Positions 10,244-50,600 of a stretch of DNA of 64,000 nt are shown here, piece by piece (the stretch's first letter is position 1; each line of letters opens with the position of its first letter). The translations under genes were made by a program, and so were the position numbers. Below the pieces are notes generated by a model. The model had not been told where the DNA came from. It saw nothing but the letters and a program-made list of their open reading frames with translations, and made no database searches. Origin of the DNA: Heterobasidion occidentale (taxonomy: Eukaryota; Basidiomycota; Agaricomycetes; Russulales; Bondarzewiaceae); NCBI GenBank assembly GCA_039111635.1, contig JBCAQO010000007.1:372001-436000 (forward strand). The letters are read 5' to 3'.

Positions 10244-10389
10244 CTCAGAGGTCTAGTTGAACGTCGAAGCTTGCAGGACTGCTTTCTGAGTGATCTTGCA
10301 CAGTATCTCAATGGTTCTTGTATTTATGTTCATAGATTGTTGAGACTTACCCCCACGACGCATGATTCGATAATCTATTTTTGAGATGG

Positions 10390-19544: not shown

Positions 19545-20108
19545 TCGGGTCGGTCTACTACCAAGCCCTTGACGTTCCTCTCTTTTGGTAACTCGATCAA
19601 GTGACGCAACGTACGAATCGATGCTGACGAGACTTACTTGTATCAGGCCTCCGAGGTTTTCTGTGCCCGCCCTTGCCAATAAGATCTATTACTTGGTATT
19701 GTTGGTACAAGCCAAGCGCGTTCATGGCTGACCCAAGCATCTGGAAGTGGCGAAATTGATGTCAAGTTGTTTGGCCTTCTGACGCCTCAAAGAATGAATC
19801 AAATCGTGCCCTCCGGGAAGGGTCCATCCTTTGTAGACTGTCTGTATTCCTTGTACATGAGCGTTTGAGTACTGATTCATTTCACACTGCATAGACGCCA
19901 ACTCCATAACATACTGGCAGGAGACCAACCGTTTTGATCGAACACAGGGCTGTCGCTGAAGCATACATCGGTTTGAATGTCTTTACTCGATCTTTTAGTC
20001 ACCTGCCAACCTGCTTCCTCTCGTGTGCGTGCATAGAATCATGTCGCACGTCATATAAGTAGCGTCTCCTTTGTCGACTGCGCTTCACCTGTCATTGGCA
20101 TCTTCACT

Positions 20109-20311
20109 GTGACTAAACATCCCCAATCGATCCAGACGTTTCGTGCTGTTGGCAAATATAACACAGATGATATCCCCAACTTCACCCCTTTGTCATGGTA
20201 TGCATTCTATTTTCTGTGCACGCTTCACACTGGCAGATACCTGGATACTCTGATACCTTCAACGACTGTGGGCTTGGCGCTCCTCTATAGCTTTCGAGCA
20301 CTTATTCTAGA
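20109..20311 (+). pseudogene. Truncated desaturase copy (left arm)
   Basis: This is a remnant of the 5' end of the desaturase at 48408-50020. It retains the segments TDDIPNFTPLSWYAF and CTLHTGRYLDTLIPSTTVG-LALLYSFRAL. The start codon is GTG where the full copy has ATG. About 160 bases between PLSWYAF and FLCTLH are missing, and the sequence stops after the FRAL codons at about 20303, before any of the three histidine boxes. It then continues directly into the middle of membrane gene A. It cannot encode an enzyme. Confidence 0.85.
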
Positions 20312-21668
20312 TTAATTTGCTCATTGCCGTCCATTTTCTGTCTTGCAGCAGTGTCGCGCCGCTAATCCTGGTATAGGCTTTTGTTCAAGTCATTGTTCAT
20401 TAGTATTTGCTTATCGGATGACAATTCGTGAGTAGACCGTTTCCCTTTTTTGTGACGCTCCTTGGAGTGACCAGAGGGAACTGGATTCTAGTTTCTATCA
20501 TCGTGAGCATATATGTCTGCACATTGTGAATACTTGCTAACGGCGATTTCGTTCTAGAGTTTCTTCGCTTTTGGCAGTTTTAGAGAGTTCAATTTTGTTC
20601 CCCGGGATGAATCACAAGTCTAATATTTTAGCATGCAAAAGGTACGACCGCAGGTGTGTCCATGTCTCCCTTACATTCCTTGCCGGTTTGAACCCCTGTC
20701 GAGCAGCTACATATGCTTCAATGTCAGCATTCAAAGTATGCTCTGGTCGTTTTATCGAACATTGCAACTTTCACAGCATCACCGACAGGACATTTTTGAA
20801 CATAGAAAACAATAAGACTCACGTGAATGTATGACTCCTCAACTTCGACTTTGTACGCATTGACTCCTCAATTTACAGGACTTCTCCACCCCAGCGTTGA
20901 CGTGTGCAATTGTCACAGATCTATGCGTCACAACCTCTTTGATGTTTTACCTCAACGAGATCAACTGTGGAGGTTCTAGGTTAGTGAAAAAATTGTTACT
21001 TCCGGTGCTTTTGACCACAACTTGCGCTGAGTGCACCTTAGACGGAGAGCCATGATCAAACGTCTGATTTCTACGCAATCAATATCGGAATAATTGCAAG
21101 GTACGGAATCCCTGAATGTACTAAATGCCCGCCAACTCGCGCCTGCTTAAAGCACGGCAGATGTTGTAGTCATCACCCTGGTGCGCATTTCCGTTTCATC
21201 GTATTTTATGGAAGGATATACTGATGGATCTGTTATGATTTACACTCCAGTCCTCGATCAGCCGCAAAACCTGAACTCATAAGGGTCTTTACTACTACGC
21301 TATCTACGAAATATGGGGGCTGTACGTTTTTATTTTCGGTTCTGAAACCCTCACTCATTGCTATTCAAGTCTACGCAAGCTTGCTGCTTGATACGTGCGT
21401 AAGAGCACTGGTTCCGATCGGAGACAGATCCTGATGCGTGATCCAGCAGTCTGAATGCAAGGAAAAGCATACGAGAGTTCGGTCTAGGCGCCGAAATCCA
21501 GATCTCGTCGCCTTCAATGCAGATTCGGCACCACGGACGATACCCGAGGTAGGGTCGTCATTTTCTCACGTCAACAGGCGGAACTGTTGAGATGCGTCGT
21601 CGTCGTTACAGCATGATGCCATTGTCATCTCCCAAATAGTCTCCAATGATATGAGCACTGAAAGATAG
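20312..21668 (+). pseudogene. DUF6534-type membrane gene A, 5'-truncated
   Basis: Homologous to the minus-strand gene at 41752-43737 but entering at the exon matching about 43155, so the signal-like first exons and first helices are absent. Retained parts include the VQVIVH-like exon (about 20390), the SRGNWILVSII exon (about 20465), the later helices around 20880-21330, SLNARKSIR (about 21450) and a final exon HDAIVISQIVSNDM ending at TAG 21666-21668. Without its start it should not be translated as the family protein, unless fused to the upstream desaturase remnant, for which I see no open frame. Confidence 0.65.
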
Positions 21669-22083
21669 GGTACAAGAAAATACCGTTTTGATTTTATAGG
21701 AGAATAGCTGCATAGTTTCAAGCCCGAATGATCCGCCGTCAATGTCGTTTGGAACTTCGTGCCACGCAACGCGTCCAGTTCTCACCTTGACTATTTCCTA
21801 AGGTTACGGTCAATATTTCAAGGCCAATGAAGAATAAATATGCTGCCTCTTCTCTTTCATAAGGTTTTCTCGTTATTTATCCTGTGTTTAACATGTCTCC
21901 TTGATGCTTAATTCATTCGCAAGGCTTCGAGGCAAAGGCATAGATGCTCGGCTGCAAAGGTACTTGATTCGACATACATTTTAAAACTCGATTCTTGTCT
22001 ACGAAATGCCGGTACACCCGCCATTGCACACGCTGCTTGCTAATTTACATGAGAACTTGAAATTCAGACACCAAACGCTTGCT

Positions 22084-23517
22084 TCAATCCCATCCTGCTT
22101 CAGCTTCGATCAAATCAGTAAACGTGTCAACGACCATCTCCTCCCACCCGATATACTTCGTCATCTTCAGGTCCGCTTCAATCTGACTGGTATCAGTGGT
22201 CGAGAAGGGGCCTGGGGCAGCAGGCGCGTTGTCCAGCGAAGGAAGCCTGTCGACCACGCCAGGCCATTTCTTGGCTAGAACACGGACGGCATCCTGCCAG
22301 AGGAATTGTCCCGCGCACATCAGGTATCTCTTTGACTGGATATCCTGAGGGGCAGGGGGGACGTTCAAGACTTTGACGTGGGCGTCAGCAACGTCACGGA
22401 CGTCGCAGAAGTAGGGAGCAATCTGGTACGGGAGGGGTCCGCCTTTCTCTCCTGCGATGAGCTGGTAGAGGAGGCCGTTGGCGCCGATTTCCGATCTTCC
22501 AGGGATAGGGAACCCCTTGGCGAATGGGCCGTAGACGAACGGAGGGTTGACTAGCGAGTTGACGGTCAGACGCGATTCAAGGAATGTGGGGTGGACGCTC
22601 AACTAGACGCAACGTCAAGCTCCGGGTGCTCTGCAGCGAATTTCCAACTGGCCTTCTCGGACAAGAGCTTCGTCGCACAGTATACCCAGAACGGTTCGTG
22701 CGTGCCCTTGATGACCTCTTCACTGGTGACATGGCCCCAATCTTAGACAGACATCATCAGGGGACTGGGATGCCAAAGGCGTGTTGGAGCCACACCTTTG
22801 TAGGTGATTACTTTCCTGTCCAATAATCCGTGGGATCACCAGCTAAGAGTAGGAATCAGATGATCCAGAACTGCAGCGAGCGGGAGAGAGACTTGCGCTC
22901 CAAGGTGCTAGCCCAGGTGGCCGTCATGACGAACTTTTTGACCTTGTATTTGACAGCCTGTCGTAAGACGTTCAGCGAGCCCTCAAGAGCGCTCTGAGAG
23001 GAGCATCAGTGCATCACGCAATCAGGAGGTATAGAAAAGGCCACGTACTGCCAGAGACGACTTTGCGTCGGCTTGACCGGCAAGAGGCGACGCGGTATGA
23101 ATGATTGCGTAGGCATCTGAAGGACAGCACCGCGTGAGCTGTTGCTTTCTGGATGACGCACGGGGAATGACCGACCTTTGAATGCTGCCGCAAAGTCGTC
23201 GGTTGCGATGTCGGTGATCTCAACTACCGTGGCATGGGCGTTGTCCTTTGCGATCGTGTTTCGAAGCTTCTCGGCCTTGAGGCCACGGGCAAGACTGTCA
23301 AGGCATCGTAGGTCAGTTAAGTGCGGGATCGTGAGATGAAGGCACGGTCGTGTACATACAGGCGGACGTTGTATCCTGAAGCAAGCAGCTTCAATACGAT
23401 ATGAGAGCCGATATTTCCAGATGCTCCAGTGACCTGCGGTGTTGTTTCAGCATGCGCCTATGATACCACGCCGTTTGGGAGATTGAAACGCACCACGACG
23501 ATCCGTTGATTCGACAT
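22084..23517 (-). CDS. NAD(P)-dependent epimerase/dihydroflavonol-reductase-like enzyme
   Basis: An extended SDR of the dihydroflavonol 4-reductase/epimerase type, probably reducing a ketone or aldehyde with NADPH. The start is ATG at 23517 (MSNQRIVVVTGASGNIG). Following elements are LKAEKLRNTIAKDNAHATVV, DAYAIIHTASPLAGQAD, the strand VKKFVMTATWAST, the catalytic YCATK within FWVYCATKLLSEKASW, and NPPFVYGP. A short intron (GTTGAG...CGCTAG, about 22608-22553) restores ASINPPFVYGP. The C-terminal part has YFCDVRDVADAHVKVL and ends at 22084. The gene appears intact, in contrast to its inverted copy at 39995-41417, which carries indels. Its neighbours are truncated membrane gene A and a P450 remnant. 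Confidence 0.8.
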
Positions 23518-23934
23518 GAGCGACTTAGAGAAGCTGGATCGCAGGTCAATCTAGTGGCGAGGCTCATTCACCTCTTCCAGACTCACGAGTTAGGTGGTTG
23601 AACAATGGGTCACCCGGCGCGAGCTGAGGTCCTGTGAGGGCCGTCCTGTCTCTTTCTAGTACGGACACATCCCCATACAAGGCTCCGTGACGTCACCATC
23701 TATGGTCACGCAATGCCTGGAACGGCTAATCGCAAGGAATCTCATTTATTTACCGGGTTTCTCGTCATCGGACTTCCAATCCTGATGACGCGGTGATCTC
23801 GGATCTCAGGCTCTCAGCGCTCAGCGCCGCTTCCAATTTATGTGATCTAGTCTATGGTGCCTTGTTTACCGTCCCAGCCTCTGACACTGCCATTGATTCG
23901 GCTCATTCCTCACGGGTCCATCTATCATATCTTT

Positions 23935-24035
23935 GTTTCCTGTCATGATCGGCTGCATTGTGCTCTTGATGTCCCTCTTGAAGACTCGTCCCTCAAATCC
24001 AAATTGCCTCCCGTTAGGCTCACCGTCAGTCCGTG
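23935..24035 (+). pseudogene. P450 N-terminal remnant
   Basis: Starting at the ATG in CATGATCGGCTG (about 23945), the sequence matches the anchor of the right-arm P450 (39525 leftward): MIGCIVLL versus MIGWIVLL, then LKTRPSN and the KLPP hinge codons in the AAATTGCCTCC segment. The remaining 2.5 kb of the gene is missing; homology resumes at about 24290 with sequence that in the right arm lies beyond the P450 3' end. It is therefore a deletion scar, not a gene. Confidence 0.7.
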
Positions 24036-24850
24036 CGCTGCAAAACTCAAAGCTTCCCAAAAGCCTCCGCCATGGCTTGCTAAGCCTATGGGAGTTCAGC
24101 GCTCGGCGCTCAGCGTCAGGCCATGTGGTAAACAAGATCGATGCAGATCACTTTCATGACAAGAATAGATAGCAGCACGATCCATCAGGTGCAAATATGG
24201 TCAACATTAAAGAGTCTTAATCAAACGCCACGAAGCAGCCAGTTCGGTCCCCTGTCCATGATCAGCGCCTCAGTCCTGGATCTATTTGCCACGTAGTAAG
24301 CGCCAGGCATCACAATCGGGATTGAGTAAGCAACGCTACATTTGGTCCTGTTTGGTCAAGTCTTCTCTTCCTGCGAAAACAGCCGCCGACACACCAGTAA
24401 TGGAAGCGTTCAGCATCTCCGACGATGGCCTACGCATTGATGGCTCCTCCCGCAGCTATTCTCGAGCAAGGATATTCTCGGCCTTGCTCGAGTGAGGTTC
24501 GGGCCCGATTGAAGAATGACATTGGCTTCCACATACCATCAATAAGCGCTCTCTCTTCCACGGTTGGGCTCAATGCGCTCGATGACGAGCTTTCCATCGT
24601 GATACAGGGATTTTGAAATGACCTTCGAATCACCTTCTGAAGGTGTTGGCTGATACGTCGCACGCAGCCTCCAGGGTGTCGTACCTCTTGATCGTTCTTC
24701 GAAGCTGCGCATATCGATCTGAGTACTACCGGACTCTACATATTCCGCTCTCGCGCTCTGTTTCTTCGCGTATTCTCCACCCCACCATTCGCCGCAGTCG
24801 CCGTCAAGCCTAGATCTTCGTTACATCGCTCGTATTTTCAAGCTATCAAC
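24036..24850. other. Non-coding inverted-repeat sequence
   Basis: About 24290-24420 matches 36610-36740 in inverse, sharing a block around CTACATTTGGTCCTGTTTGG. The rest up to 24850 is promoter-proximal to membrane gene B. No gene is seen. Confidence 0.5.
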
Positions 24851-26840
24851 ATGTCGTCGTGTGTCCCCACGCCGCCTTCCGATCATGCCCTCGTCGATAT
24901 CCAAAGTACGTACGGGGCTCTCTTCCTCGGCGTTGTCGTTTCTGTGTCGTAAGTGCTTCCCTGTGAGCTTGATATCGTGCTAGCTGACTCTCTGTAGTTT
25001 TCTCGGGATAGTGACTGTGCAGACTTGGATTTACTGGCTAAACTACCCTGACGATCATCTCCGTACGAAGGCGACAGTACGTTTTTTCACCTGTTCACCT
25101 AGACCGACGTTGACTACATTTCTACAACTGATAGGTCTTTATAATATGGTACAATCCCCCTTTTCTCTGTTCCACTGCTTGGTTCAAAAAATGTCACACG
25201 ATTCCGCAGGATCCTCGAAATTATCAGATCAATGTTCGGTATACATGCCGTTTATCATTACCTTGTACTTCAGTGGGGAAACACAACCGCGCTAGAAGCA
25301 TCTATATGGTCAGTGCACTCTGGATCATTTCAGTCAAATTCCCCAATTGACATGAAATTATTGAACAGGAGCGTTGATGTTCGTAAGAAGACAATACTGT
25401 TGGCCTGATCACTGACCTGATTGTACCGCCCGCAGATCAATTTGCTCATCACAGTCAGCTATCTAGGCTGTAATCATGACCTGCCGCTGCTAATTCTGTT
25501 GTAGGCATTGATCCAAGTAACCGTCCATTGGTATTTTGCATATCGAGTCAAAATCCGTACGTACATAATTTCTATCTGATTATCTCGATATCTGGAAATG
25601 TCTTTAGTGAGCAGAGGCAACTGGATTCTAGTCTCGGTCATTGTGAGTACATGTTACGGCGCATTCGAACATATGCCAATCGAGGTTTTAGGGCGTGCTG
25701 GCTTTCGGAAACTTCAGTCAGTCTGATTGTTCCCTTTCTGAATGGCCCTGAACCATTGACAACGAGTTTAGGTATGACGATAGGTACGCCTATCCTAGTC
25801 CTCACCGCAGTCTTGATTGATATCGAATATCACTATGTCGAGCAGCGACTTATGGTTCGACGTGAGTTTTCTCAAACTGAGATCTTTTTCACAGACTCGT
25901 CTCACATTCTCTTTTCTGTCTGATAATACCAGCATCGCTGCCGAGACGTTCTCCAAGATCCAAGGCAAAACCTTTCCAGGCGTAATAATTAGCATTGCCG
26001 GTCTCTAGGTGCTTCAAGCTAATTATAGCTCTCAGGACTTTTCCACCGCCGCGTTGGCATCAGCTATCGTTACAGATATATGCATCGCATTTTCGTTGAT
26101 CTACTATTTAAATCAGATCAACCACGAACTTTCTGGGTGAGCTTGTTGAGTTTTTGCTGCTGTAGAGTGCTGTACGCTAAACGGAATGCAGACTGAGAGC
26201 TCAGGCTAATCATCTCATATTCTATGCGATCAACATCGGGGTCATTACAAGGTGCGGCGATTTTGCGTCCTTTGGAGTGTTCTGACATCAGATATATTTC
26301 CGCAGTGCGGCAGATATCGTTGTGCTTGTGCTGGTTCGCAATAACACAATTTCCTTGCTCCTGCCTGTGCTCATCATCTGTGCTCCAGAGCTCGATCAAG
26401 GGTCAAGGCCTGTGGTATTTCGCAATATATGAAATAGTGGGCGGCTGTACGTTCTTATTTCGATTCATCGGAATTGTTGGTCACAGCGTTCAACAGTCTA
26501 TGCAAATTCTCTCCTCGCGAGGTAGGTGTTTAGCTCTAGTTACCAGATCCGGGAGAACTGCATAACGAGACTCACACGTAACAATCTAGTTTGAATGCCA
26601 GGAAGAGCATCCGGGATTATGATCCCCGCAACGATATCCATATGTCGACACTCCGAGTGGCTTCACCTCCACAGACAGAGCTTGAGGTAATGTCTTCGCT
26701 GTTTTGACCCCATGTGTACTGCTATTGAGAATCGACAATCCTTCCAGCCAAATGCAATTAGTTTCTCCCAGATGGTGACAAAGAGTACTGCCAGTAGCGG
26801 AAAAAATGTGGCACGTGAATCTCCTGTTGTCTCGATATAA
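24851..26840 (+). CDS. DUF6534-type membrane protein B (left copy)
   Basis: ATG at 24851 opens MSSCVPTPPSDHALVDIQST, then GALFLGVVVSVS. After an intron (about 24949-24998) comes the family hallmark FLGIVTVQTWIYWLNYPDD. Further exons encode VHWYFAYRV, SRGNWILVSVI, a Gly/Thr-rich helix, GLWYFAIYEIVGGCTFLFRF and, after the SLNARKSIRDYDPRN segment, a final exon ending SPVVSI at TAA 26838-26840. Proteins of this type have seven predicted helices and are greatly expanded in Agaricomycetes; function unknown. Seven or more introns of about 50 bases are inferred. It is the better-preserved copy, since the right-arm partner has a shifted C terminus. Some internal joins (25280-25460) were not resolved. 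Confidence 0.7.
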
Positions 26841-26860
26841 GAAGCTGACCTCGCGATTCA

Positions 26861-27514
26861 ACAGCCCGAAATCTTCTCTGTGAGCTGAATCCTTTGATAC
26901 GTAGTATATCATGATATGTGTAGATCTGCCTCCGTCTCGTAGTTTTCTATTGGGCTCAATTCCTTCTATGTCAGTATTTATTCCCGGCTTCGCAAAATGT
27001 GGAGGAGGGTTGTGTGGGAAAGATATGCATAGACCTTAATTACATCAATGTCGTGAATGTCCTCCGTTCCATTATCGCAACGCTTATTGGCTGTTGTCCT
27101 CGCTGCATCAGCTGGCTATCTAAGAAAATGAACGGGGATATTGAAGCGGAGTCTCAAACGAGTTATCCATACGCGCCCATCTGGATTCGGGATATAAGCC
27201 AGTGATGCATTGATCCTCGGCAATAATTCGGAACCGGAATCGTAGTCCCTAAGCCTAGGTGCCTCCTGGGTCTAAGCGCTTGAGCCGCTGATTTGGGGTC
27301 TTGCGACTTCATGGCATACCGCTCCTTCGGGTCTATGATGACTCTGCGGAGCGCTCGAGATGCTTCGATTCTGGGTGATCGTGTGTACCTATGTTTACTC
27401 CCCAGCTTAGCAGCCGCACCCTGGGAGTTCTCTCGCTAGGAACAGCCTGCAGGCCTGAAGGCTGTATCCCAACAGCCATTTCGTGCACGACGATTGTCTA
27501 GACTCATCTCTCCT
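26861..27514. other. Start of spacer, no recognised gene
   Basis: Inverted homology ends at about 26860. Nothing recognisable precedes the P450 start at 27515. Confidence 0.4.
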
Positions 27515-29839
27515 ATGTTTTCCTCGATCATTGTGTGGGTCGTACTCTTTGTCTCAGCATGGTTCATTTTGAGGGGCCGCTTCTCAAACTCCAAGCTGCC
27601 TCCGGGGCCGCCCAGGGGACTGTCTGGAGACAATCGAGGGCAGATACCTCTCGTTCAGCCTTACAAGACTTGGTCTCATCTGGCGAAGACATATGGTGCG
27701 TTGACGTCTGGAAGCTTAACACTGGCTTCATGATACATGGGGAACTAGGAAACATATTTTCTTTCGTTATTGGCACCAAGGTGGTCATCGGTAACGACAA
27801 TTTACTGTGAAACTGCGGACACATCCTGACATCATTTCGAAGTGCTCAACGATGCCCGGACCGCATGGGAGTTACTGGAAAAGCGAGGGGAGATATACTC
27901 TAGTCGACCGAGATCCATCGTGGGGTCTGTTCAACGCGGTTTATATGGATGAGTGACTGCTGCTGACAGAAACCGCCTGCTATTTTAGCCAAGAGATCCT
28001 TTCTCGCAACATGTGGGGATTGGGCATGGCGTACAGCGATAAGTGGCGGAAATGGCGAAAGGTATCTGTTTTGAAATCGTCCTGCACTGTCGCTTACTTA
28101 GCATCGACTTCTCAGCTTCAGCATTCCTGCCTCAACGCAAAGTATGCTGTCAATTACCGCGCTTTCCAGACGCTTGAATCTTCGGTGCTGCTACGCGACC
28201 TTCTTGACGACGCCGGAAATTACGCGCATCATTTCACGAGGCAGGCTCTGATCTCCACTCGGAAATTCTACTAGTAATAATACGCTTGCTTTAGATTTGC
28301 GACCTCAGTAGCTTTCTCGATAAGCTACGGTAGTAGGATCAAGAGCCTGGATGATCAGATAGTCAAGGACAACAATGAAGCTGGAAGAGGTATGCGTAGT
28401 TTCCGCCCTCTTTCTTATTTTCTTCTCATCATCTTTTCTCAGCATTTGGAACTGCTCAGTAAGTCGCCTTCTTCAATATCGGGCCAAGGGCACCTAGTGA
28501 CAGAGATGTTGGCTCCAGAATTCCGGGAAGATATATTGTCGAGTCCGTGCGTGCCATTCATCGTTGTCAACAATTATATAGCACTTACTGGCATTAATTG
28601 CTAGTGGCCTATTCTTTTGTGGCTTCCCGTGCGTTTTTCTGAAATTAATGTTCAGGGTGTTTCCTTCACAAATTGTGGATCTTTGCTAGAAATTCTTGCA
28701 ATGGTTCAGATGGGAGGTCGAGAAGAGACGACTTATAGACATACAACTTTACCTGAGCTGCTTTCGAGACGTCAAGCGCAAGATGGAAGAGGGCACCGCG
28801 AAGCCGTCTATGTCGACGAAGATGTGGGAAGAGGGGCCTTCTGAAGACATCGGCGAAATCGAGATGGCATATCATGTTGCAAGCCCGTTTGCCGCCGGTA
28901 TATCTACGGTACACCCTTTCACAACCATCACAGACCTGCGTATTGATGACGCCCTGTTTCCTTCGCAAGATCTCTTCTACACTGGACGTTTTCCTACGTG
29001 AGCCACGACGTTTTGTCTCTTCGATTTTTCTTGTCTCATATCGTTTTCTTGATCGAGTCGTTATGATCCATTTTCCCGATTGTGCACGGCGTGCTCAGGC
29101 TGAGCTGGACTCGGTCGTCGGACGATCTCGCATGCCGACCTTCGACGACGAATCTTCTCTCCCCTACCTGCAAGCTCTGATCAAGGAGATAATGAGGTAC
29201 GCTCTTGCACCCATTGCACGAAAATATGACTAACAGGTTTTGATTATAAGATGGAGGGTTGTCGCACCCATGGCTATGCCTCACGCAACAACAGAAGACG
29301 ATATTTACCAAGGATACCATATTCCCAAGGGGGCTACTGTGTTTGCGAATCTATAGTACGTCGTCCGATCATACCTGCTTCACTGTGATTTGACTGCCAC
29401 GCAGTATGATTTCTAAAGACCCTGAACTGTTCCCTGAGCCCGAAGCGTTCAAACCCGAGAGGTTTTTAGACACGACGGAACCGAGGCTTGTGAACTTCGA
29501 CCTCCCTTTCGGTTTCGGCCGACGCATCTGCCCCGCACAATTTGTCGCAGAGAAATCTCTGTTCATCACCATCTCAAGGTCGGTGTAAATTCCATCGACT
29601 AAGCTCCGCACCTCTGATCATTATTGCTCTCATTTAGAATGCTTTGGTCGTTTGACATTGCTCCTGCGTTGGATGAAGCAGGAAATCCGCTGCTCCCTGA
29701 CCCTGATGCGTTCAAGAGCAACTTGACTGCACGCCCTGCCCCGTTCAACTTTCAGCTCACCGCTCGCAACTCCGAAGCAGGCAAGGCAGTGTTAGCAGAG
29801 GCGATTCAGAGCGAAGATGCGCTGAAGGAGTGGGAGTAG
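27515..29839 (+). CDS. Cytochrome P450 (spacer paralogue P)
   Basis: ATG at 27515 opens a membrane anchor (MFSSIIVWVVLFVSAWFIL) and the KLPPGPPRG hinge. Internal exons encode EILSRNMWGLGMAYSDKWRKWRK, LQHSCLNAKYAVNYRAF, FSISYGSRIKSLDD, WEEGPSEDIGEIEMAYHVASPF, and LDSVVGRSRMPTFDDE. The ExxR motif is EIMR (about 29190), PERF is at about 29455, and the haem loop is FGFGRRICPA (about 29510). It ends with KEWE and a stop at 29837-29839. The last conserved Gly/Ala pair after the haem Cys reads Pro-Ala, unlike the usual C-x-G. It resembles fungal P450s annotated as O-methylsterigmatocystin-oxidoreductase-like. The right-arm P450 (37194-39525) is a diverged paralogue in opposite orientation. The region 28390-28650 is poorly conserved and its exon structure is uncertain. 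Confidence 0.75.
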
Positions 29840-30981
29840 AGCATGGGTTTACCAGGCCTACTTCTGATATCAGAATCTTCGACAGCATCAGGATGAGCGT
29901 GCTGTATAGAATATCTTCTCCTATCGTCCTTGCTGTCTGTGTCATTTATGAATGAATATGTCACGTCAGATTCTGTAATTGATGAATGGTAGAGAGAAAG
30001 ACCAGACAGGAAAATCAAAATACCCTGGTAGCGACAACAGAGCGGACGTATCTGAAATTGGGGAGCACATTTAGTGTTCAGTCGGACTTTCTTTGGCATT
30101 GAACAAAAAGTTGTACAGGACTGATGATGGAGCTCCATGTGAGAAAACAGAATCCACCTTGCATATGGGCTCCAGGAAAGAGACCAAGGAGCTGTCAACA
30201 CGATATCGGTTGTTTGATGAGCCCGACTACAACGGTGCAAGAATGTGTTCTGCATCTTGATTGGTCAATAGATTCGAGCTAGGTCCAATTGCAGAAGAAC
30301 CCTTCAATGAATGTGTTACTGAGTCTATCTAGCGCACACTACAAACAGCATTGCTATAAGGAACGAGTTCCGCGGCCGCCGGGACCGCCGGGATTACGAT
30401 TCACCCGAGCCGGACCTTGGACTGACTGAGTCCACCCGCCAAATTTTAACCCACGGTGCACTGAACGATACCAGCAAACCTCTATTCGAAAGAAGACGGT
30501 GGAAATCCTTTTCCTGAATGTGCTAACATCATTCTCCGTGAAATTGGGGCCGCTGAAGATTGAAGATTGAGCAGCGCACAACGAAACGCGACGAGTTTTG
30601 TAGGCCACGTCGCGTCCCGCACTACATCAATCCTCCAAGCATCCTACCGTCGCACAGCTATATCAGTAGTGATATCAGGTGTTCTACGTGTTGAAACCGA
30701 TCCGATACCACCGGCTCTAGGACGCTCCGCTCCTGCTGATGGGATGACAAGTCAGCGTCGTTTTCCAACAGCCCGACCGCCCACCGTGATTGCGCAGTGG
30801 GCCTGAATCAATCAAGGGTAGCGAGCATGTAATTGTGAGTACTGAATATGGGGCCCTCGGATGCGTGGAATTTGTGATGGCGAATTGATCTGACGACAGA
30901 GTCTTCTGTCTAAGAGTCGTTAAAATGCGGCCCATTATGGCATGTATCACGCATTCAATCCTCACCGGAAAGATATCCTAG
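29840..30981. other. Spacer intergenic
   Basis: About 1.1 kb without a recognisable gene. The 84-codon minus frame at 30354-30608 shows no family features. Confidence 0.4.
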
Positions 30982-34189: not shown

Positions 34190-34239
34190 GTGTGGTCAGC
34201 CGCCTACGCTAAGATAACAGGAGCTTTACGTACCGTATT

Positions 34240-39994: not shown

Positions 39995-41417
39995 ATGTCG
40001 AACGAACGCATCGTCGTGGTGCGTTTCAAGCCCCCGAGTGTCGTTATATGCTGACGCGGCACTGCAGATCACTGGAGCATCTGGAACTATCGGCTCTCAT
40101 ATTGCATTGAAGCTGCTTGCATCCGGATACACCCTCCGCCTGTATGTACACGACTCTGCCGTCATCTCAAGATCCCGTGCTTGCTGACCTACGACACCTT
40201 GACAGTCTCACCCGTGGTCTCAAGGCCGAGAAGCTTCGAAACACGATCATCAAGGACAATGCCCACGCCACGGTGGTAGAAATCACCGACATCGCAGCCG
40301 TTGACTTTGCGGAAGCATTTCAAGGTTGGTCATGCCCCACATGAGCTGTTGCTTGCTAGACGACACGCGGTGCTGTACTTCAGATGCCTACGAAATCATT
40401 CATACCGTGCCGCCTCTTGCCGGTCAAGCCGACGCAAAGTCGTCTCTGGCAGTACGTGGCCTTTTCTATACCTCCTGATTGCATGATGCACTGATGCTCC
40501 TCTCAGAGCGCTCTTGAGGGCTCGCTGAACGTCTTACGACAGGCTGTCAAATACAAGGTCAAAAAGTTCGTCATGACGGCCACCTGGGCTAGCACCTTGG
40601 AGCGCAAGTCTCTCTCCCGCTCGCTGAAGTTCTGGATCATCTGATTCCTACTCTTAGCTGGTGATCCCACGGATTATTGGACAGTAAAAGTGATCACCTA
40701 CAAAGGTGTGGCTCCAACGCGCCTTTGGAATCCCAGTCCCCTGATGATGTCTGTCTAAGATTGGGGCCATGTCACCAGTGAAGATGTCATCAAGGGCACG
40801 CACGAACCGTTCTGGGTATACTGTGCGACGAAGCTCTTGTCCGAGAAGGCCAGTTGGAAATTCGCTGCAGAGCACCCGGAGCTTGACGTTGCGTCTAGTT
40901 GAGCATCCACCCCACATTCCTTGAATCGCGTCTGACCGTCAACTCGCTAGTCAACCCTCCGTTCGTCTACGGCCCATTCGCCAAGGGGTTCCCTATACCT
41001 GGAAGATCGGAAATCGGCGCCAACGGCCTCCTCTACCAGCTCATCGTAGGAGAGAAAGGCGGTCCCCTCCCGTACCAGATTGCTCCCTACTTCTGCGACG
41101 TCCGTGACGTTGCTGACGCCCACGTCAAAGTCTTGAACGTCCCCCCTGCCCCTCAAGGATATCCAGTCAAAGAGATACCTGATGTGCGCGGGACGATTCC
41201 TCTGGCAGGACGCTGTCCGTGTTTTAGCGAAGAAATGGCCTGGCGTGGTCGACAGGCTTCCTTCGCTGGACAACGCACCTGCTGCCCCTGGCCCTTCCCG
41301 ATCACTGATAACAGTCAGATTGAAGCGGACCCGAAGATGTCCGAATATATTTGGTGGGAGGAGATGGTCGTTGACACGTTTGCTGACTTGATCGAAGCTG
41401 AAGTGGGATGGGATTGA
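39995..41417 (+). pseudogene. Epimerase/reductase E' with compensating indels
   Basis: Inverted copy of the gene at 22084-23517. The start ATG is at 39995 (MSNERIVVVTGASGTIG). LTRGLKAEKLRNTIIKDN, FWVYCATKLLSEKASW and NPPFVYGPFAKG are intact. At 41155-41156 an extra A (CTCAAGGAT versus CTCAGGAT) shifts the frame. At about 41291-41295 one C is missing (GGCCCTTC versus GGCCCCTTC) and the frame returns. Between them about 46 residues are replaced by unrelated sequence, after which the ending SQIEADPKMSEYIWWEE is normal. At the intron donor after DYWT (about 40683) one extra base also disturbs the join that works in the left copy. Probably non-functional, though a protein with a scrambled loop cannot be excluded. 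Confidence 0.65.
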
Positions 41418-41751
41418 AGTAAACGTTTGGTGTTTGAACTTCGAGTTCTTGTGTATATTAGCAAGCACGTAATCGTGTTCAATGATGGGTGTATCAGAAT
41501 TTCCGTGGACATGAATCGAGTATCAGCAATCAAATGGAGTACATTTGCAGTCAGGTAACTTGAAAATCAAGCACTCGTGAAGTGCGTAGCATAAAAAACG
41601 AGGAAATCCAACTGAGGACATGAGCTAACATATTCATCCTCAATTGACGTCAAGGTATCGGCCATAAAATCAGACAAAATGAAGGACACCACGACTGTTG
41701 GTGCAGCAAGAATATTAGACGACACTGACGGCGAATCCCTTGGACTGGAAA

Positions 41752-43737
41752 TCATGACGTCAGGCTCCTGATATAATGAAACACTGTAGTTTCTCGTACC
41801 CTATCTTTCACAGTGCCTAAGTTATTGGAGGCCATCTGGGAAATAACAATGGCACTATGCTGTGTCGCGTCTGAACAGGTGTGCTGGTTTGCTCGAGGAA
41901 AATGAATCTACCTCAGGTTCCGTCGATGGAGGCGAAGCCGCTTGAAGCGACGATACATGGGCATCAGCGCCTCGTATACCCTTCCTAGCGTTCAAACTGC
42001 AGCATCGTGTATCAGTATCCGTCTCCGATCGAAATCAGTGCTACTACGCACGTAGCAAGCAGCGAATTTACGTAGACTTTATGTGCATTGAGTGAGGGCT
42101 TAGGAACCAAGAAATCAACACGCACAGCCGCCCACTATTTCATAGATAGCAAAATAGTAAAGGCCCTTTTGAGTCCAGCTCTGAAAGTTCAGTCATGCGT
42201 AATAGTCACGATAGTGGTTCTGCAAAACATAAAGGAGCGCGCACCAGTATGAGCACTACAACGTCTGCCATGCTTCAGACAGGAATAAGTTGGTAGGCAT
42301 CCGATAGACTCAAGGGTGTGGTACCTCGTTATCACTCCAATGTTTATCGCGTAGAAGATGAGTCGGTTGACTATGGCTCTGAGTCTACCGTGCATCCGGT
42401 GCGAGTTATGATTAGAAAGTATAGGAAGTAGCGATTTTTTCACTAACCCAGAACCTCCACGGTTGATTTGATTGAGATAATACATCAAAGAAAGTGTGAT
42501 GCATATATCTGTGGTGATCGCGCATGCCAAAGCTGCGGTGGAGAATGCCTAAAAAGCCGGTGAGTTTCATATGTACAAAGCCAATGGCGAGGAACTAATA
42601 CGGTCGATAATGTCTTATTGCCTTGGATCTTCGAATATGTACTGGCAGCGACGCTAGAAAGATAACCAGAGACAAAACGTTGAAATAAAATGATCACAGC
42701 ATCATGAATTCAGAAACCAACCTTGCACCATATGTAGCTGTTCGGAAGGAGATTCGAGAAAACTTTAAAAGGTAGAGATTAGACATGGACGCACCTGTAG
42801 TCATGCCTTTCCCATGTCAAAATGTAAGACTTAGGATTGATCTCGAAAAACAAAATGGGGCTGACTAAAATTGCCGAACGCCAAGATACCCTAGAACGGA
42901 ACCACCGTTGGTAAGTGCTGACGATAAGCAGCCACATATACTCACAATTATCGAGACTATAATCCAATTCCCTCTGCTTACTGATAGGAGCATCAATTGT
43001 TGACGGAAAAGAGGGAAGAAGTCAACGCACGAATCTTCACCCGATACGCAAAATACCAATGAACAATGACTTGAACCAAAGCCTACACCATAATGAGGAT
43101 CAGCGGTGCGACACAAATTCAGGTTAGACAACTGACGGTGATGAGCAAATTAACCTGAAACAATGTGACCAAGTCAGCAGAGATGTTCGGCCGGTAAGTT
43201 AACAGTTGGACAAACGTCGCGACTCCTTCTCGTAAACATTTATATCAATGAAAACGTCTGACTAGGAAGGAAACACATTACGCGCACCATATAGATTTCG
43301 ATAATGCAGCCGGGTTTCCCCATTGAATGACGACATAGTGGTACACAGCATGGACTCCAAAAGAGCACCGAATGAACTCAAGAATCCTGAGTACGTCTTT
43401 TCGTCAATTCAAGCTCGGAGACGTTTTTGTAACAAACACCGTACCAGACTACGAGGACCTATGACATGCCCTCGTATAGTCACCTTCGATAGATTCGAAG
43501 AGATCGATAACGTACCGTCAGTTTCGTACGGAGAAGATCATCTGGATAGTTCAGCCAGTAAATCCAACATTGCACGGTAGCGATTCCAAGAAACCTGGAA
43601 GATCCAAAGTTGTGCCAATGAGGGAAAATCACCAAGAATACTCACGCTACAGATACGATGACGCCGAAGAACAGAGCTCCGTATGTAGCTTGAATATCCA
43701 CGAGGGCATGGTTTGAAGGTGAGGGGACACAGGACAT
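41752..43737 (-). CDS. DUF6534-type membrane protein A' (complete copy)
   Basis: The start ATG at 43737 gives MSCVPSPSNHALVDIQAT and GALFFGVIVSVA, paralogous to the starts of B and B'. Later exons contain the GNWIIVSIIVS segment (about 42955), the helix with SLMYYLNQINRGGS (about 42450), SLNARKGIRGADAHVSSL (about 41990) and, after an intron (about 41916-41867), a final exon HSAIVISQMASNNLG that ends at TGA (41752-41754). Seven helices are expected for the family; role unknown. It diverges from the B pair, so A and B were separate genes before the inverted duplication. The 5' 600 bases have no counterpart in the left arm. Confidence 0.65.
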
Positions 43738-44377
43738 GACGATAGCTCTCAAGCCGTTAAAATGAGGGGCAGAAACTGTACGATGGTGCCCTAGGCTTAT
43801 CAACTACGCACGGTGAGCGGTTTACCCCCATCGAGGTTCTTCAGTAGAGCAAATAAGTTACTGTACCTGGCGAAGCGTATGCATTCAGTCAGCACTCAAA
43901 TCAATCCCGTCTGGGAGCTATACGAGCCTAATCAATCCGGACAACAACCCATCGCGCGGCGTGTGAAGTATCAACGTATCAACCGCTGGAGCAGGGATAT
44001 CTAGTCCGAAATACAAGGAAGGTTCAAACTTGCGTGGTCTAGTTGTCAAACTGAGTTTAAGACGGCACACTATGACGGAACACCCCATAGAACAGACCCT
44101 CGTTGTCTTCCAGGGTCTTCCGACGTTCAATGATAAACGCAGATGGACGCGGAGCGCTGAAACAAATCCTTAGCTTGATGCGCGCACGGGGCGACACAAA
44201 AATGGAGATTCAATTCCGGCAACTTCCGGCTATTGTGGCGTGGATTTGGAATGCTCAAGCGCTCAAATCCGATCCGACCGTGTGCAAGTTGGGGGTCATG
44301 AGTCCAAAATACAACATGACTGCCGGGAACGTGAATTGACCATACATTCCGAGAACTTTGTCGAAAAAAAGCTGATA
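43738..44377. other. Intergenic
   Basis: No recognised gene; minus-strand frames are short and overlap promoter sequence of A' or the 3' side of the ICMT-like gene. Confidence 0.4.
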
Positions 44378-45145
44378 TCAGTATATACCTGGTATGAACC
44401 TGCGCGAAACATCTGCACAATAACGATCCCATTCGCTCCCAAACCTCTTCCTCAGTAGCTCATCTTCAACTATGCCCCTTTTCCGCCACGACATAAACGA
44501 AAATAAGGCCAAACCTACGTACGCTGAAACTGCCCAACCGCCAGGAGTGGTCATGATCTCACACTGTCGATTCCACCCTGCTGGAGAAAAATGGGCCAGG
44601 AAGAGCCCTCCAATCTGCAGAACGCCACCAGAATAACTTGGGTGGCGGACGTAGGCATATGGACCTGTCACGACCAATCGATGTGAAGGTCGCGTTGTCA
44701 CCTCAAACGTGAAAAGCGTCCCCAGAGCCTTAAAGCACCAAACTCGAATACAGAACCCCGTGAGCATGAAGGCGATGCCGAAGACGAATGATGGGTGAAT
44801 GGATGCAATGAGATCAGAGTTGGGCATATTGTGAGGACACAATATGGGGAGGATATCGTGTTCGGAGAATGTGTGCGGAAAGCCCACTGCAGCGACCACT
44901 AGGAACTCGCATGTGAATGCTATAACGACAGCGGTCTGCGCCAAAAAGATGAGAGTCGTTGTGCAAGAATAAATCATTGAGCGAACCTTAGTGACGATAG
45001 AAAGACCTCGAACAATACGGTCGAACAGTTGACCGCCGTATACTCTGTCCTCGTCGGTCGGTGCTGGGTTTGGTGGTGTGAACGAGACATAGTATGATAT
45101 TGCACCTGCTACAAGAAATGCAAGCTTGATCAAAGTGGAGGACAT
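44378..45145 (-). CDS. ICMT-like methyltransferase, second copy
   Basis: ATG at 45145 opens a membrane protein with SYYVSFTPPNPAPTDEDR, ALGTLFTFEV and the signature GPYAYVRHPSYSGG; the stop is at 44378-44380. The frame is open throughout, but 44936-44986 has GT-AG borders, is exactly 51 bases long, and corresponds in position to the intron of the copy at 8025-8796. Removing it gives 238 residues, the same as that copy. Retention would only add 17 residues, so both isoforms are possible. Membrane enzyme predicted to transfer methyl from S-adenosylmethionine to a carboxylate. It is in the right arm only; the left arm has lost it. The protein resembles the first copy along its whole length but is clearly diverged. 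Confidence 0.8.
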   Translation of the reverse strand: MSSTLIKLAFLVAGAISYYVSFTPPNPAPTDEDRVYGGQLFDRIVRGLSIVTKVRSMIYSCTTTLIFLAQTAVVIAFTCEFLVVAAVGFPHTFSEHDILPILCPHNMPNSDLIASIHPSFVFGIAFMLTGFCIRVWCFKALGTLFTFEVTTRPSHRLVVTGPYAYVRHPSYSGGVLQIGGLFLAHFSPAGWNRQCEIMTTPGGWAVSAYVGLALFSFMSWRKRGIVEDELLRKRFGSEWDRYCADVSRRFIPGIY

Positions 45146-46091
45146 CAGAGATGTGGTCGTGTTCTAACTTTCGTACGAAAATTGGGCACGACGAACCCGG
45201 TCACAAGACTATATATTTACAGTTAAAACAAATGAAACAGCCTACCAAAAACACTATTGTTGTCGCTCATGCTTTCAGATGCCGGACCTGATGTGATGAA
45301 ATCGAGCACGTTTAGTAGCAGAAGGATATCCGGATGACCTATTGGACCAAAAAAGGCGCAATGCGAGGCCAGGCTTCATGGCCATGAAGCAGCATCGTTC
45401 GAAATCATTGTCCAAGTAGGGGACCTATCATTCTGATCTCAGTCGATAAACGCTCGTATGACCAGCCCTTGTATCAAAGTTCAAATGGAGATCTCGGGCC
45501 CGGCGGCTGACTTCGTGGCGTGCGGAGAAAGTATCTGTTGTGAAGGATATCCAGGAATAGGAGGTGAAATCGTACCCCTGGAAACGTCACGCAAATGCCA
45601 GATCATACCGGTGTTACAGCCATACGTGGAAGAGCGCTAAAAGATCATCAGTCTGCGGAGCAGAAGGGTCTGATTCTGGAACTCATTTCACATGTTGGAC
45701 GTGCTATGAATACACAGGCCAGCCCAGCGTTAAGATAGTGAGATACAGAGGACCGCATCCATCAAGTGCATCGTGTTCGGGCCAGTTCGTCACCGGCACT
45801 TGGGATGAAGCCCGACCCGCGGGCAGCGATGAACTCCTCGTTGACACTGACATCGCCGCCATGGAGCGTCGGAGTATAGCGGAGCGGCATTGGAAAGACC
45901 GGCCATGTCCGACCCTACCGCACAACGAAGTTCCGCTTCCCCTTCAACGGTAGATATCTGATGCCATTGAAGGGGCCGCAGCTTCGAAATCTTGTGTTGC
46001 TGCGTTCAGATAAATATAGAATCGCTGCAATTATGGCGTGCGCCAGTCATAACCGCTCTAGCCTCTCACATCTGCCCAGGCAGCATTTTCC
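45146..46091. other. Intergenic between divergent ICMT-like and P450 genes
   Basis: About 950 bases, with a 129-codon plus frame (45564-45953) that shows no family features. It presumably contains both promoters. Confidence 0.4.
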
Positions 46092-48143
46092 ATGGACTAT
46101 GCGGCCCCACTCCTTGCAGGCTTCGTGAGTTTGAGTTTTCGATCTCTATGGGACATGACTTACGCGTCAGTGATCGCTGTTTCAGCTGACCTGTATATTT
46201 CTGCATAAATGCCCTGTGCGGGGCGACGTGGCACTGGCGATCCATATGGCCATTGTCTTCGGATGCTATCTTATCAGATTCTTTGACGGCTATGTGGAGA
46301 GATGGCAGCTCCTCAGTGACCCACTCAAGACCATCTTCCTGCATGACAGCGCCATTGCTCTCACCACCATCGCGTATCGGGTGTCACCTATCCATCCGCT
46401 ATATCGATTCCCTGGGTCACTCATCCATAAGATGACAAGTCTGCAAACAGCATACATCGTCTACTCAGGGCGCCGCCATTTGATCGTGGCAGGCCTTCAC
46501 GCGAGATACGGAAAATATGTTCGCACAGGTCAGCTTTTTTTACGCTTCCAATTCACTGGCTGAAACTGCGAAAATGAGGCCCCAACACGTTGTCCATCAA
46601 CTCTCATGCCGCAGTCTCTCCCATCTATGCCAGTGCTGTACCTATGGACAAGAGCCGTGCCTACCAGTTTGGCGATGCGAAGGGCAAGGGATTATTCTTT
46701 ATGAGGAAGGTTGAAGAGCACAACAGTCGACGTCGACAGTGGGCAGGTGCATTCTCAGTACACAGGTATGTTCATTTCCAGTCCCAATGACTGCAATTGA
46801 CTATCAGAATTGAAAGCTTGAAGGAGCACAAAATCACGTTAGAGCGGCGCGCGTTCGAGCTCGTTGAATGCATAGGCATGCGGCACGATGGAAACAGTGT
46901 GGTCAACCTTTCTCAATGTTTGCATCACTTTGCGTATGATGCGATGGTAAGTGATCATACTTATCGTGGCGTTCAACTAGATTGACTCACCGATCAGTAG
47001 GGTGACATCGTATTTGGAAACTCTAGTCGAATGGTTCGTTGCCTCTTCTCATACTCTGGGAGATACCGATTCGTCGACAGGATCTCATGAAAGAAGGCGA
47101 TCCTCAAGGCCTGATCGCCAGTGGTCTGTCTGCAACCATTGCGTTCGAGATGTGAAAACTTTCAATCCTCTTCGTTGACGAGACGTTGATATATTCCTCG
47201 ACAGCCTCGGTGAAGTCCCTTCGCTCTCCGAGATACTTTGGTATTTTCCCGTTACAGACCGATTACGACGCCTGGAAGATTACGCAGGGAAATTGATGAC
47301 AGCTCGCCAGAACATGGATTCGTGTGCAGAGTATCATGACTTGGCGTCGCATTTAGTACGCATTTTTCAGGTGTTTTCAATGCAATGATTGACCATGAGC
47401 TCTCACAGCTGTGCGCTACTGATCCGTCAATGCAAAAGCTGTCACCAGAAGATCTACGCGCCGACGCCCTCTTTGCCATTCAAGCCGGCTCAGATACTCC
47501 TGCCGGAGTCCTCACCTTCCTATTCTACTTCCTTCTGTCACGTCGCGATGCCTACGATAAGCTACGCGAAGAGTTGGACGAAAGCTTCTTCACACAGGAA
47601 GAAGGATTTATTGATGGGACTTTGGACGATCTTCCTTACCTCAACGCGGTAGTAAATGAAACCCTTCGCCTTGGCACACCGTTCGGCGGATTTCCTCGCG
47701 TAGTTCCCCAAGGAGGAATTGTCATCGACAATGAATTTATTCCCAAGGACACGATTGTCAGCGTACCAACTTATACTCAAGAGATTTCGGAGGAGAACTT
47801 TTGGCCAGAACCTCTATCGTTCAAGCCAGAGCGGTGGCTGCCTGGAGGGCTTGGCCCTGGGTCGAGAGCACGCAAGTCAGCCATCATGGCCTTCTCATAC
47901 GGTGCGCGCTATGAACGATGAAAGACATGGTCCTGATGAATCTGCACAGGGCCTTTTGGATGTTTAGGCAAATCATTAGCAATCCATGAGCTTCTCATAG
48001 TCACGGCGCGATTACTGCTGAACTATGATCTCATGTTGGCTCCGTCGTTCGACCACGAAGCATTTTCTGCGGGAGTTTATAACATTCGAGCCGCGTTGTT
48101 TTCATATCCACTCTTAGTTGTAGCTACGAGACGTCGAGGCTGA
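46092..48143 (+). CDS. Cytochrome P450 (right-arm, complete)
   Basis: A tiny first exon (46092-46124, MDYAAPLLAGF) is spliced in phase to 46186-46528, giving LTCIFLHKC, several hydrophobic segments and the hinge HPLYRFPGS. Exon 3 starts at 46579 and completes GPNTLSIN. Further signatures are HNSRRRQWAGAFS, ILWYFPVTDRLRRLEDY, I-helix QAGSDTPAG (about 47490), ExxR as ETLR (about 47660), PERW (about 47828) and, across a last intron (about 47905-47954), the haem loop FSYGPFGCLGKSLA. The stop is at 48141-48143. It looks intact and is ER-anchored. Related to the frame-broken P450 at 15460-17731: both are next to an ICMT-like gene in the same neighbourhood, suggesting an older duplication of an ICMT-P450 pair. 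Confidence 0.8.
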
Positions 48144-48407
48144 CCAGTATGCGTTAGAAAAAAGAGAAATGTAGTTGAGTATCCTCTAGATGTGTTGGAC
48201 TGATTGATATCAAGAACTCAAAATGCACAAATCGAGATTCCGCTTGGAACGAGAACGATAAGTGAACAATTTGAACACATTCTTCGACACTGCTTAGTAC
48301 ATAACGAGTTTAACCTCCATCCCGAAACAGACTGCGCCCCTGCTTGTTCTTGTAGAACACGATATCCCCTTGATTACAAAGACTTGATCAATCTTGTGAG
48401 TGATTAT

Positions 48408-50020
48408 TCACTGTAAACGCGACTGACCTTTGTCCTCAACAAACTGACAATTGTTATAATTATCCCAAAGTGCCTGGAACACCGGTTTGCTCGAGCGATG
48501 ATAGTGTTCCCCGAGTAGTCTCTGCAGGTGCTGCGTTGCCTCCCGACCATGATCTGTGTCGTGCATCAGTTTACATCAAAGAATGAACGTCGTGTTACGG
48601 ACAAAATGGCATCTTGGGGAAAAAATGATGTATGACGTGGAAATGCGCGACATCGTGAAGGAAAAAATGTCCGATGAACCCGAGGAACTCTCGGTCCATG
48701 GTCGCAGCGGCGCCACGTTGAAAGTTCCATTGCCCGGAGCGGTAGTGCGGTAGGGCTGGATCGGTATGCTGCAGGTAAGTGATCATGACAAACCAGTGAT
48801 TGACGCAAATCCAAGGCATAGCGTAGTATTGAACGACGGTCGATGTACCCCATCGAGAGCACCCCCATTTCAAAGCGAAGACCATAAAAAGGATGCCCAG
48901 GTTGGACATCAAAACGGCGGGGCGTTGTTCGCGCGTGAAGAGCACGCTGTCGGCTAATGTCACACGTGCAATTTAGCTACATTTCAAGGTGAAACGAAGC
49001 TGTGCTTACGATTGTAATGGTTTGTCCACTTTGGATAGCGCGCCTGTCCAGACACATTGGAAACTGAAGTAAAGGATAATAGGAGGTATACCCAGCCGTG
49101 TATGAGCAAGATATATTAGTTGCAGCATACCAAGATACGCGGGAAACGCGAGTAGTTGTTGACGAATAAGCATGAAGAGTGTGTAGATCGGGGTGTCGCC
49201 GAAGTAATCCTCGTAATCGATCTCGTCTTCGCCCTCAGAAGGGATTCCAAGGTCGCTCCTAGCCTTCGGGATGTACGGCTCGTCGTACTCTATGGAAGCG
49301 TGCTTCATGTGGTGTCGATGGTGGGATATCTTCCAGCTGAAGTATGGTGTCAAAAGAAATGTATGGCAGGCCTAAAGTTCACATTCGCATTAGCGAACGA
49401 ACATAGGAATAGAATGGGGGAGGATGAAGTGACCTACGTATCCAAGGATGTCGCATAGCCAGCCGTGGGCGGAAAATGCACCATGCCCGCACTGTACACG
49501 ACTTCGTAAGATGAAAGATCAAGATTACTGTAAAGAAAGACCAAACCTCGTGGCCGATGACCCAGATTCCAGTGAAAGCGAAGCCTTGTAAAATCCAGCT
49601 GTATGACCGAGTAAGCACCCAAGCAAAGTCCTGAAAATCGAGATACACTCACTACGTGCACCACAAAAGTGCTCGAAAGCTATAGAGAAGCGCCAAGCCC
49701 ATAGTCGTCGAAGGCACTAGAGTGTCCAGGTATCTGCCAATGTGAAGCGTGCACAGAAAAATACTGCAAGCTACAAGTATGTCCCGTCCGAGAACTAACA
49801 ATCCTCTGCAGGTATTCCGGACCAAGAGGTGCGAGGGTATGACCTCTCGAATATCCTTCATGGACCTGACACGAATCCACCTGAGTACGTGGTATATCTG
49901 GCAGGTATACAAGGCGAATGCATACCATGACAAAGGGGTGAAGTTGGGGATGTCATCTGTGTACAATTTGCCAACAGCACGCGAATCCGTCCGGATCGAT
50001 TGGGGAGATGTCTTGTCCAT
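48408..50020 (-). CDS. Delta-12-type fatty acid desaturase
   Basis: A membrane di-iron desaturase of the delta-12/acetylenase family. ATG at 50020 opens MDKTSPQSIRTDS; TDDIPNFTPLSWYA is spliced to IREVIPSHLLVRNT. Histidine box 1 is created by splicing (GHE joined to CGHGAFSAHGWL across about 49547-49492) to give HECGH. Box 2 is HHRHH in TPYFSWKISHHRHHMKH (about 49330). Box 3 is HVIHH in HDVAHFHVIHHFFPKMPF (about 48610). The final exon (REATQHLQRLLGEHY, WDNYNNCQF) ends at TGA 48408-48410. These enzymes sit in the ER and desaturate oleoyl lipids; in mushrooms, relatives also make acetylenic fatty acids. Whether this one is metabolic or part of the cluster cannot be told. A truncated inverted copy lies at 20109-20311. 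Confidence 0.85.
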
Positions 50021-50600
50021 AGTGATAATGACAATGACAGGTCAAGCACATTCGACGGAGAGACGCTTTATATGACGTGCGACATGATTCTATGCACGCA
50101 CACGAGAGGAAGCAGGTTGGCAGGTGACTAAAAGATCGAGTAAAGACATGAGAACCGATGTATGCTTCAGCGACAGCCCTCTGTTCGATCAGAACGGTTG
50201 GTCTCCTGTCTGTTATGGACGTTGGCGTCTATGCAGTGTGAAATAGGTCAGTACGCCAGCGCTCATGACCAGGGAATACAGACAGTCTATGAAGGATGGA
50301 CTCTTCCCGGAGGGCACGATTCTGACTCATTCTTTGAGGCGTCAGAAGGCCAAATAGATTTCGCCACTTTTAAAAGCTTGGGTCAGCCATGCACGCGCTC
50401 GGCTTGTACTAACATTACTACCAGCGATATCCAATTGCAACGACTTGAAAGGCAACAGATCTTATTGGAAAGAGCAGACACAGAAAACATCGGAATCCTG
50501 ATACAAGTAATCCTCGTTAGCATCGATTCGTACATCACGTCGTCTGATCGAATTACCGAAAGAGAGGAACGTCAAGAGCTTGGTAGAATCAGGCAAAGTG
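50021..50600. promoter_or_regulatory. Conserved upstream region of the desaturase
   Basis: About 580 bases upstream of the desaturase are conserved in the left arm (20108 back to about 19545), even though the gene there is destroyed. A plus-strand frame of 168 codons (50162-50668) is matched in the left arm only in its first third and then with shifts, which argues against a protein. Blocks such as GTCAGAAGGCCAAA and AGAGAGGAACGTCAAG are shared. It may simply be repeat-arm sequence that includes the promoter. Confidence 0.45.

Follow-up and report, generated by a model that had tools for sequence, protein, structure and literature searches.

The window analysed here, a stretch of 64,000 nucleotides of the basidiomycete Heterobasidion occidentale (positions 372001-436000 of the 3.04-Mb contig C7, from a 45.05-Mb genome in 159 contigs), contains a large inverted duplication of a metabolic gene block whose two unequal arms face each other across a single-copy, gene-bearing spacer. 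We conclude, with a probability that we put at about 0.84, that this arrangement represents an old inverted duplication followed by losses in the left arm and by repeated arm-to-arm gene conversion. After a self-comparison of the window, the left arm was compared by blastn with the reverse-complemented right arm. A single collinear inverted duplication joins positions 19558-27397 with 50586-33872. It consists of seven chain pieces in one order with E-values from 0.0 to 5e-6 and identities of 71-91%, and the match runs through introns and intergenic DNA as well as exons. The DNA-level duplication around a gene-bearing spacer that had been proposed from the sequence was thus recovered. The self-comparison, which had been suggested as a check for 19-51 kb, displays all five predicted mirrored blocks in opposite orientation: desaturase start, membrane gene A, epimerase gene E, cytochrome P450 start and membrane gene B. 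On the other strand this search yielded no direct-orientation match between the arms, no match was found between their two 10-kb outer flanks, and the eight blastn pieces lying off the chain all join the paralogous membrane genes A and B. The only run of undefined bases in the window (100 N at 5658-5757) lies outside the duplication.

Several features of the original prediction had to be adjusted. The order and orientation of the mirrored arms hold, but the arms are unequal, with 7.8 kb on the left and 16.7 kb on the right. The centre carries genes as foreseen, whereas its size, given as 7.3 kb, is 6.5 kb by strict limits and 7.1 kb between the edges of the strong matches. All five blocks are homologous, but the left desaturase, membrane gene A and P450 are only remnants. 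The asymmetry of the arms, the mosaic described below and two short chain matches come in addition to what had been predicted.

The left arm lacks counterparts of right-arm positions 49915-49761 (155 bases), 49666-43157 (6.5 kb) and 39448-36711 (2.7 kb). The first loss lies inside the desaturase and removes its exon 2, the second starts within the desaturase and stops within membrane gene A, and the third takes the body of the P450 but spares a portion of the first exon; some 310 bases of the left arm have no match at this place. Since each of the three losses cuts genes whose right-arm models are open, the left arm is the derived, decayed state. A second haplotype is available for part of this region: contig C101 (26,634 bases) matches window positions 10650-23092 (12.5 kb) and 7795-10651 (2.9 kb) at about 98.5% identity, with 0.3-3.6% difference per full kilobase over 11001-23000; its orientation is that of the left side, to which it is allelic. 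C101 has the first two losses as well, and the third lies past its end. What is left of membrane gene A diverges from its right counterpart near-neutrally, as expected under little constraint (126 of 550 exon sites, 22.9%, and 183 of 647 intron sites, 28.3%, differ).

The background divergence of the arms is high and even. Six segments distributed along the arms have non-exon differences of 28.3, 27.4, 23.8, 26.0, 28.8 and 23.9%, or 26.9% when pooled (620/2307 sites), and these values are homogeneous (chi-square 3.7, 5 df, P 0.59), which fits one duplication. Segments differing by 16-27% overall account for 3586 of the 6275 compared sites, and the arms therefore do not display homogenisation above 99%. 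In gene B, the ratio of non-synonymous to synonymous divergence (dN/dS), 0.08 for the 5' part and 0.19 for the middle, is consistent with selection having acted on both copies; for the 5' part of E it is 0.33. Protein-guided synonymous divergence (dS) reaches 1.37 between the spacer P450 and the right-arm P450 and 1.87 between membrane genes A and B; as these values exceed those of the arms, both pairs are older paralogs.

On this background the identity profile of the arms is stepwise, with four segments of low non-exon difference (10.9, 2.1, 7.6 and 2.2%; Table 1). These four are heterogeneous among themselves (P 6e-6) and hence likely record more than one conversion episode. The desaturase relic, in which 1 of 37 non-exon sites differs, is too short to be given weight, and the 3' end of E offers zero non-exon sites and differs by 9.4% overall. 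In the lowest-divergence tract, 22226-23089, 18 of 866 columns differ, giving a score of 136.6 where 1000 shuffles reached no more than 12.4, and the exon columns alone (22308-23089) score 47.8 against at most 14.4. Introns inside and outside the tracts differ at 5/239 versus 41/172 sites in E (Fisher P 4e-12) and at 4/181 versus 131/763 sites in B (Fisher P 5e-9); the patches of raised identity include non-coding sites, as in gene-converting palindromes. The edge of the E tract at 23064 is abrupt, identity dropping from 99% to 78%. Over 758 columns of this tract we counted 13 differences between left and right arm, 8 between left arm and C101 and 13 between right arm and C101; arm and allele divergence being similar here, conversion would have taken place at about the time of allelic divergence. 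The simplest reading is that of repeated ectopic gene conversion between the arms, the latest around the haplotype split. The donor arm of the conversions could not be assigned using the epimerase relatives listed (21 matches among 3482 candidates), the best of which, from Trametes cingulata, is 48% identical to a query that is itself chimeric.

A number of points weigh against this history. On DNA alignments dS is 0.257 in the 5' part of E (90 codons), 0.268 at its 3' end (39 codons) and 0.685 in the 5' part of B (117 codons), and the E and B 5' parts are significantly unequal (Fisher P 0.003); older, partial conversion is one way to explain the lower dS in E. The linkage of both arms and the spacer on a single 3.04-Mb contig is known from the assembly alone, and the second haplotype covers the window only as far as 23092. 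Between 23000 and 37000 and between 43200 and 56000 no further allelic contig was matched, an absence that is no proof; 37001-43199 was not used as a query of its own. The gene models were built from hand-chosen anchor peptides without transcript support. Segment limits for non-exon divergence were fixed after the identity profile had been inspected, which makes the tests on segments descriptive and not free of bias, and the shuffle tests of tracts ignore rate variation. All tract edges except 23064 are more gradual, and the plateau upstream of the desaturase could partly be due to constraint. Near-equal dS values of 0.402 and 0.418, earlier taken as an argument for one event, were dropped after the recount on DNA alignments because of misaligned out-of-frame codons in E and averaging across unequal plateaux in B.

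The original prediction had offered as an alternative that two haplotypes of a dikaryon were joined in inverse orientation by mis-assembly. A piece of an alternative haplotype does exist, and it stops inside the epimerase block, near the tract with the greatest similarity between arms and between haplotypes. However, C101 is allelic to the left arm, has the same orientation and carries the first two of its losses, and this true allele is about 98.5% identical whereas the arms are 24-29% different at non-exon sites in the six segments, an order of magnitude more, and differ by three losses as well. The arrangement therefore looks real, and we regard such a mis-join as extremely improbable. We also considered that the arms derive from more than one duplication, or that older paralogous clusters merely look mirrored. 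The unequal dS of E and B would fit this, as would a region rich in duplicated enzymes, including the older P450 and membrane gene pairs, a second desaturase and ICMT-family gene about 18-23 kb before the window and another ICMT-family gene at 8092-8793. Against it, intergenic DNA aligns over several genes in a single order, non-exon divergence is equal in the six spread segments, and older partial conversion can equally lower dS in E; an origin of this kind seems quite unlikely to us.

Two further explanations concern the high-identity tracts. Strong functional constraint could be invoked since E and B are coding, with dN/dS below 1 in both, and since the segments have unequal rates at synonymous sites too. 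Yet tract introns are about as conserved as exons (2%) whereas introns of the same genes outside the tracts differ by 17-24%, and constraint on exons would leave introns unconserved, which renders constraint a very weak candidate. A consensus artefact, in which one arm was polished with reads of the other, would agree with the E tract being the closest point of both arms and alleles and with C101 ending just past it. We give this possibility just as little credence: the arms retain the 13 differences within the tract, plateaux of 7.6% and 10.9% are unlike a product of polishing, and sites diverged by about 25% would hardly have permitted the mixing of reads. Gene conversion between the arms of an old duplication remains our preferred explanation.

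On this view, some 16.7 kb of DNA (desaturase, second P450, ICMT-family methyltransferase, membrane gene A, epimerase E, P450 and membrane gene B) would have been duplicated as an inverted copy, with about 6.5 kb of single-copy DNA remaining in between. The collinearity and orientation of the arms and their even non-exon divergence in the six segments suggest a single event, in the simplest case a fold-back during replication or a template switch, which would have left a single-copy loop. Arm edges were inspected for mobile elements by eye over about 50-60 bases per edge. The left arm would then have lost its three pieces, as seen in this haplotype, to become mostly a remnant retaining E and membrane gene B. 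Because the two arms would have continued to face each other as homologs within a single chromosome, parts of E, of B and of the region upstream of the desaturase could be overwritten by ectopic conversion, which the mosaic suggests happened more than once. The block lies in a wider oxidoreductase region near a terpene synthase and probably serves in tailoring a secondary metabolite.

The two epimerase copies bear different lesions, one within and one beside the shared conversion tract. In this haplotype, one base is deleted from a short exon of left E that falls within the tract, and the C101 allele of left E is open across the portion covered. Right E carries two opposite 1-base frame changes near 41157 and 41297, leaving about 46 codons between them out of frame. 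These single-base lesions may be assembly errors. That the facing arms act as a standing store for the repair and shuffling of tailoring enzymes is unlikely in our judgement; if this were the case, conversion could restore or recombine working E copies and generate allelic enzyme diversity within the species.

A partial duplication of the aflatoxin cluster is reported from Aspergillus parasiticus. There too a segment of a fungal cluster was duplicated, but in another phylum and with another chemistry. Palindromes with arm-to-arm gene conversion are reportedly the subject of Rozen et al. 2003, a work cited in PMC12510652. The large palindromes of the mammalian X and Y and of willow are alike in having facing homologous arms, a spacer and homogenisation by gene conversion. 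Arms of mammalian X/Y palindromes are kept more than 99% identical according to PMC8981503, whereas here homogenisation is confined to patches and most of one arm has gone. In the Cryptococcus mating-type loci, divergent pheromone gene copies may serve as inverted repeats and gene-conversion templates (PMC12510652). This is again a basidiomycete with inverted duplicates on one chromosome for which intra-chromosomal gene conversion was proposed, but it involves small single genes at a mating locus, in contrast to the multi-gene metabolic block described here, in which the mosaic is directly seen. No clear parallel, combining gene conversion with the inverted duplication of a metabolic block in a basidiomycete, was evident from the titles of the open-licence papers searched. 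In this locus of a mushroom-forming fungus, conversion-like exchange between the inverted copies of a metabolic block is readable, and an allelic contig calibrates part of it. It shows a duplicated block decaying on one side while the retained genes partly stay similar, and it cautions that the identity between arms is a poor clock for duplicated clusters.

Gene and alignment coordinates are collected in Table 1. The paralogous P450 and flavin oxidase that had been predicted for the spacer were both recognised, the former by alignment and the latter by its BBE domain; the PF01565 score of the oxidase (21.1 bits) is under the cut-off of 26.4, and its gene model ends at 33527. Among the best 120 of 928 matches, the best named relative of the desaturase is a Dichomitus squalens sequence (58%), and one unnamed sequence reaches 83%. 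Like the best named epimerase relative, that of D. squalens comes from a polypore.

Table 1. Coordinates in the window of the inverted duplication, its aligned blocks, conversion-like segments and genes.
Feature	Position	Strand	Remarks
Left arm	19558-27397	+	~7.8 kb, decayed; blastn
Right arm	33872-50586	-	~16.7 kb, near ancestral content; blastn
Single-copy spacer, strict limits	27398-33871	.	6.5 kb; no arm-to-arm match inside
Desaturase start, left ~ right	19558-20303 ~ 50586-49667	opposite	blastn
Membrane gene A and E to P450 start	20309-23899 ~ 43156-39583	opposite	one alignment, 76% over 3700 columns
P450 first exon, left ~ right	23933-24011 ~ 39537-39449	opposite	blastn
Short chain match	24322-24371 ~ 36710-36658	opposite	blastn; extends symmetry
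Membrane gene B, left ~ right	24734-26970 ~ 36289-34059	opposite	83% over 2269 columns
Short chain match, inner edge	27268-27397 ~ 33981-33872	opposite	blastn; extends symmetry
Desaturase-upstream plateau	within 19558-20303	.	10.9% non-exon difference
E conversion-like tract	22308-23063 (right ~41193-40437)	.	11/756 sites differ; non-exon 5/239 (2.1%)
B older conversion-like plateau	25544-26225	.	non-exon 30/395 (7.6%)
B younger conversion-like tract	26226-26540	.	non-exon 4/181 (2.2%)
Desaturase remnant, left	19558-20303	+	upstream region, exon 1, part of exon 3; lacks exon 2 and all later; also in C101
Membrane gene A (DUF6534) remnant, left	20309-21500	+	lacks 5' exons
NAD-dependent epimerase/dehydratase E, left copy	22084-23517	-	PF01370 family, assigned via right-copy model
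P450 first-exon remnant, left	23933-24011	+	counterpart of right 39448-36711 missing
Membrane gene B (DUF6534), left copy	24851-26686	+	PF20152, 58 bits, cut-off 28.2
Spacer P450	27515-29839	+	placed by alignment to right-arm P450, not by Pfam scan
FAD-linked oxidase with BBE domain, spacer	30982-33750	+	PF08031, 29.5 bits, cut-off 20.6; 3' end approximate
Membrane gene B, right copy	34204-36172	-	gene model
P450, right arm	37194-39525	-	PF00067, 223 bits
Epimerase E, right copy	39995-41417	+	gene model with two frame changes
Membrane gene A (DUF6534), right	41808-43737	-	70.5 bits, open model
ICMT-family methyltransferase, right arm only	44381-45163	-	PF04140
Second P450, right arm only	46092-48143	+	PF00067, 170.5 bits
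Fatty acid desaturase, delta-12/acetylenase kind, right	48310-50020	-	PF00487, 82 bits, open model
ICMT-family	8092-8793		Pfam
Short-chain dehydrogenase	9862-10209		Pfam
Zinc dehydrogenase	55321-56064		Pfam
P450 piece	59478-59864		Pfam
Terpene synthase fragment	63425-64000		PF19086, 72.6 bits; 13 kb beyond right arm

The flanks were scanned against Pfam with 20 hand-picked open pieces, 11 of which matched. Pfam further placed a desaturase and an ICMT-family gene (stretch L033) and a P450 (L034) before the window, and a GMC oxidase with two P450 pieces after it (L035). A terpene synthase fragment, P450s and dehydrogenases occur near the duplication, and the region may be a secondary-metabolite cluster. 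The terpene synthase fragment is a possible core enzyme of the region, and the product may plausibly be a terpenoid or a lipid-derived metabolite. The further desaturase and ICMT-family genes in L033 lie at about 4972-6202 and 8938-9531, the desaturase sharing 71-72% DNA identity with that of the right arm. Judged by its predicted gene content, enzymes of the same kinds have been duplicated repeatedly in this region.

As alleles, C101 and the window sequence differ by 3.6% at 12001-13000, by 2.2% at 20001-21000 and by 0.3-1.2% in the other full kilobases of 11001-23000. C101 also carries a heterozygous insertion of about 4.5 kb (9694-14171; L004-L005), absent from the window haplotype at about 10650. 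It has short matching ends and, slightly inside them, inverted repeats of about 366 bases with 96% identity (9906-10268 and 13641-13280). It is probably a DNA transposon, its open frames resembling what we take to be a Tc1/mariner-type transposase. A search of a phage collection gave no match and has no bearing on the duplication. Near the start of the window, at 1950-2121, lies a tandem array with a period of 51 bp and 3.4 copies.

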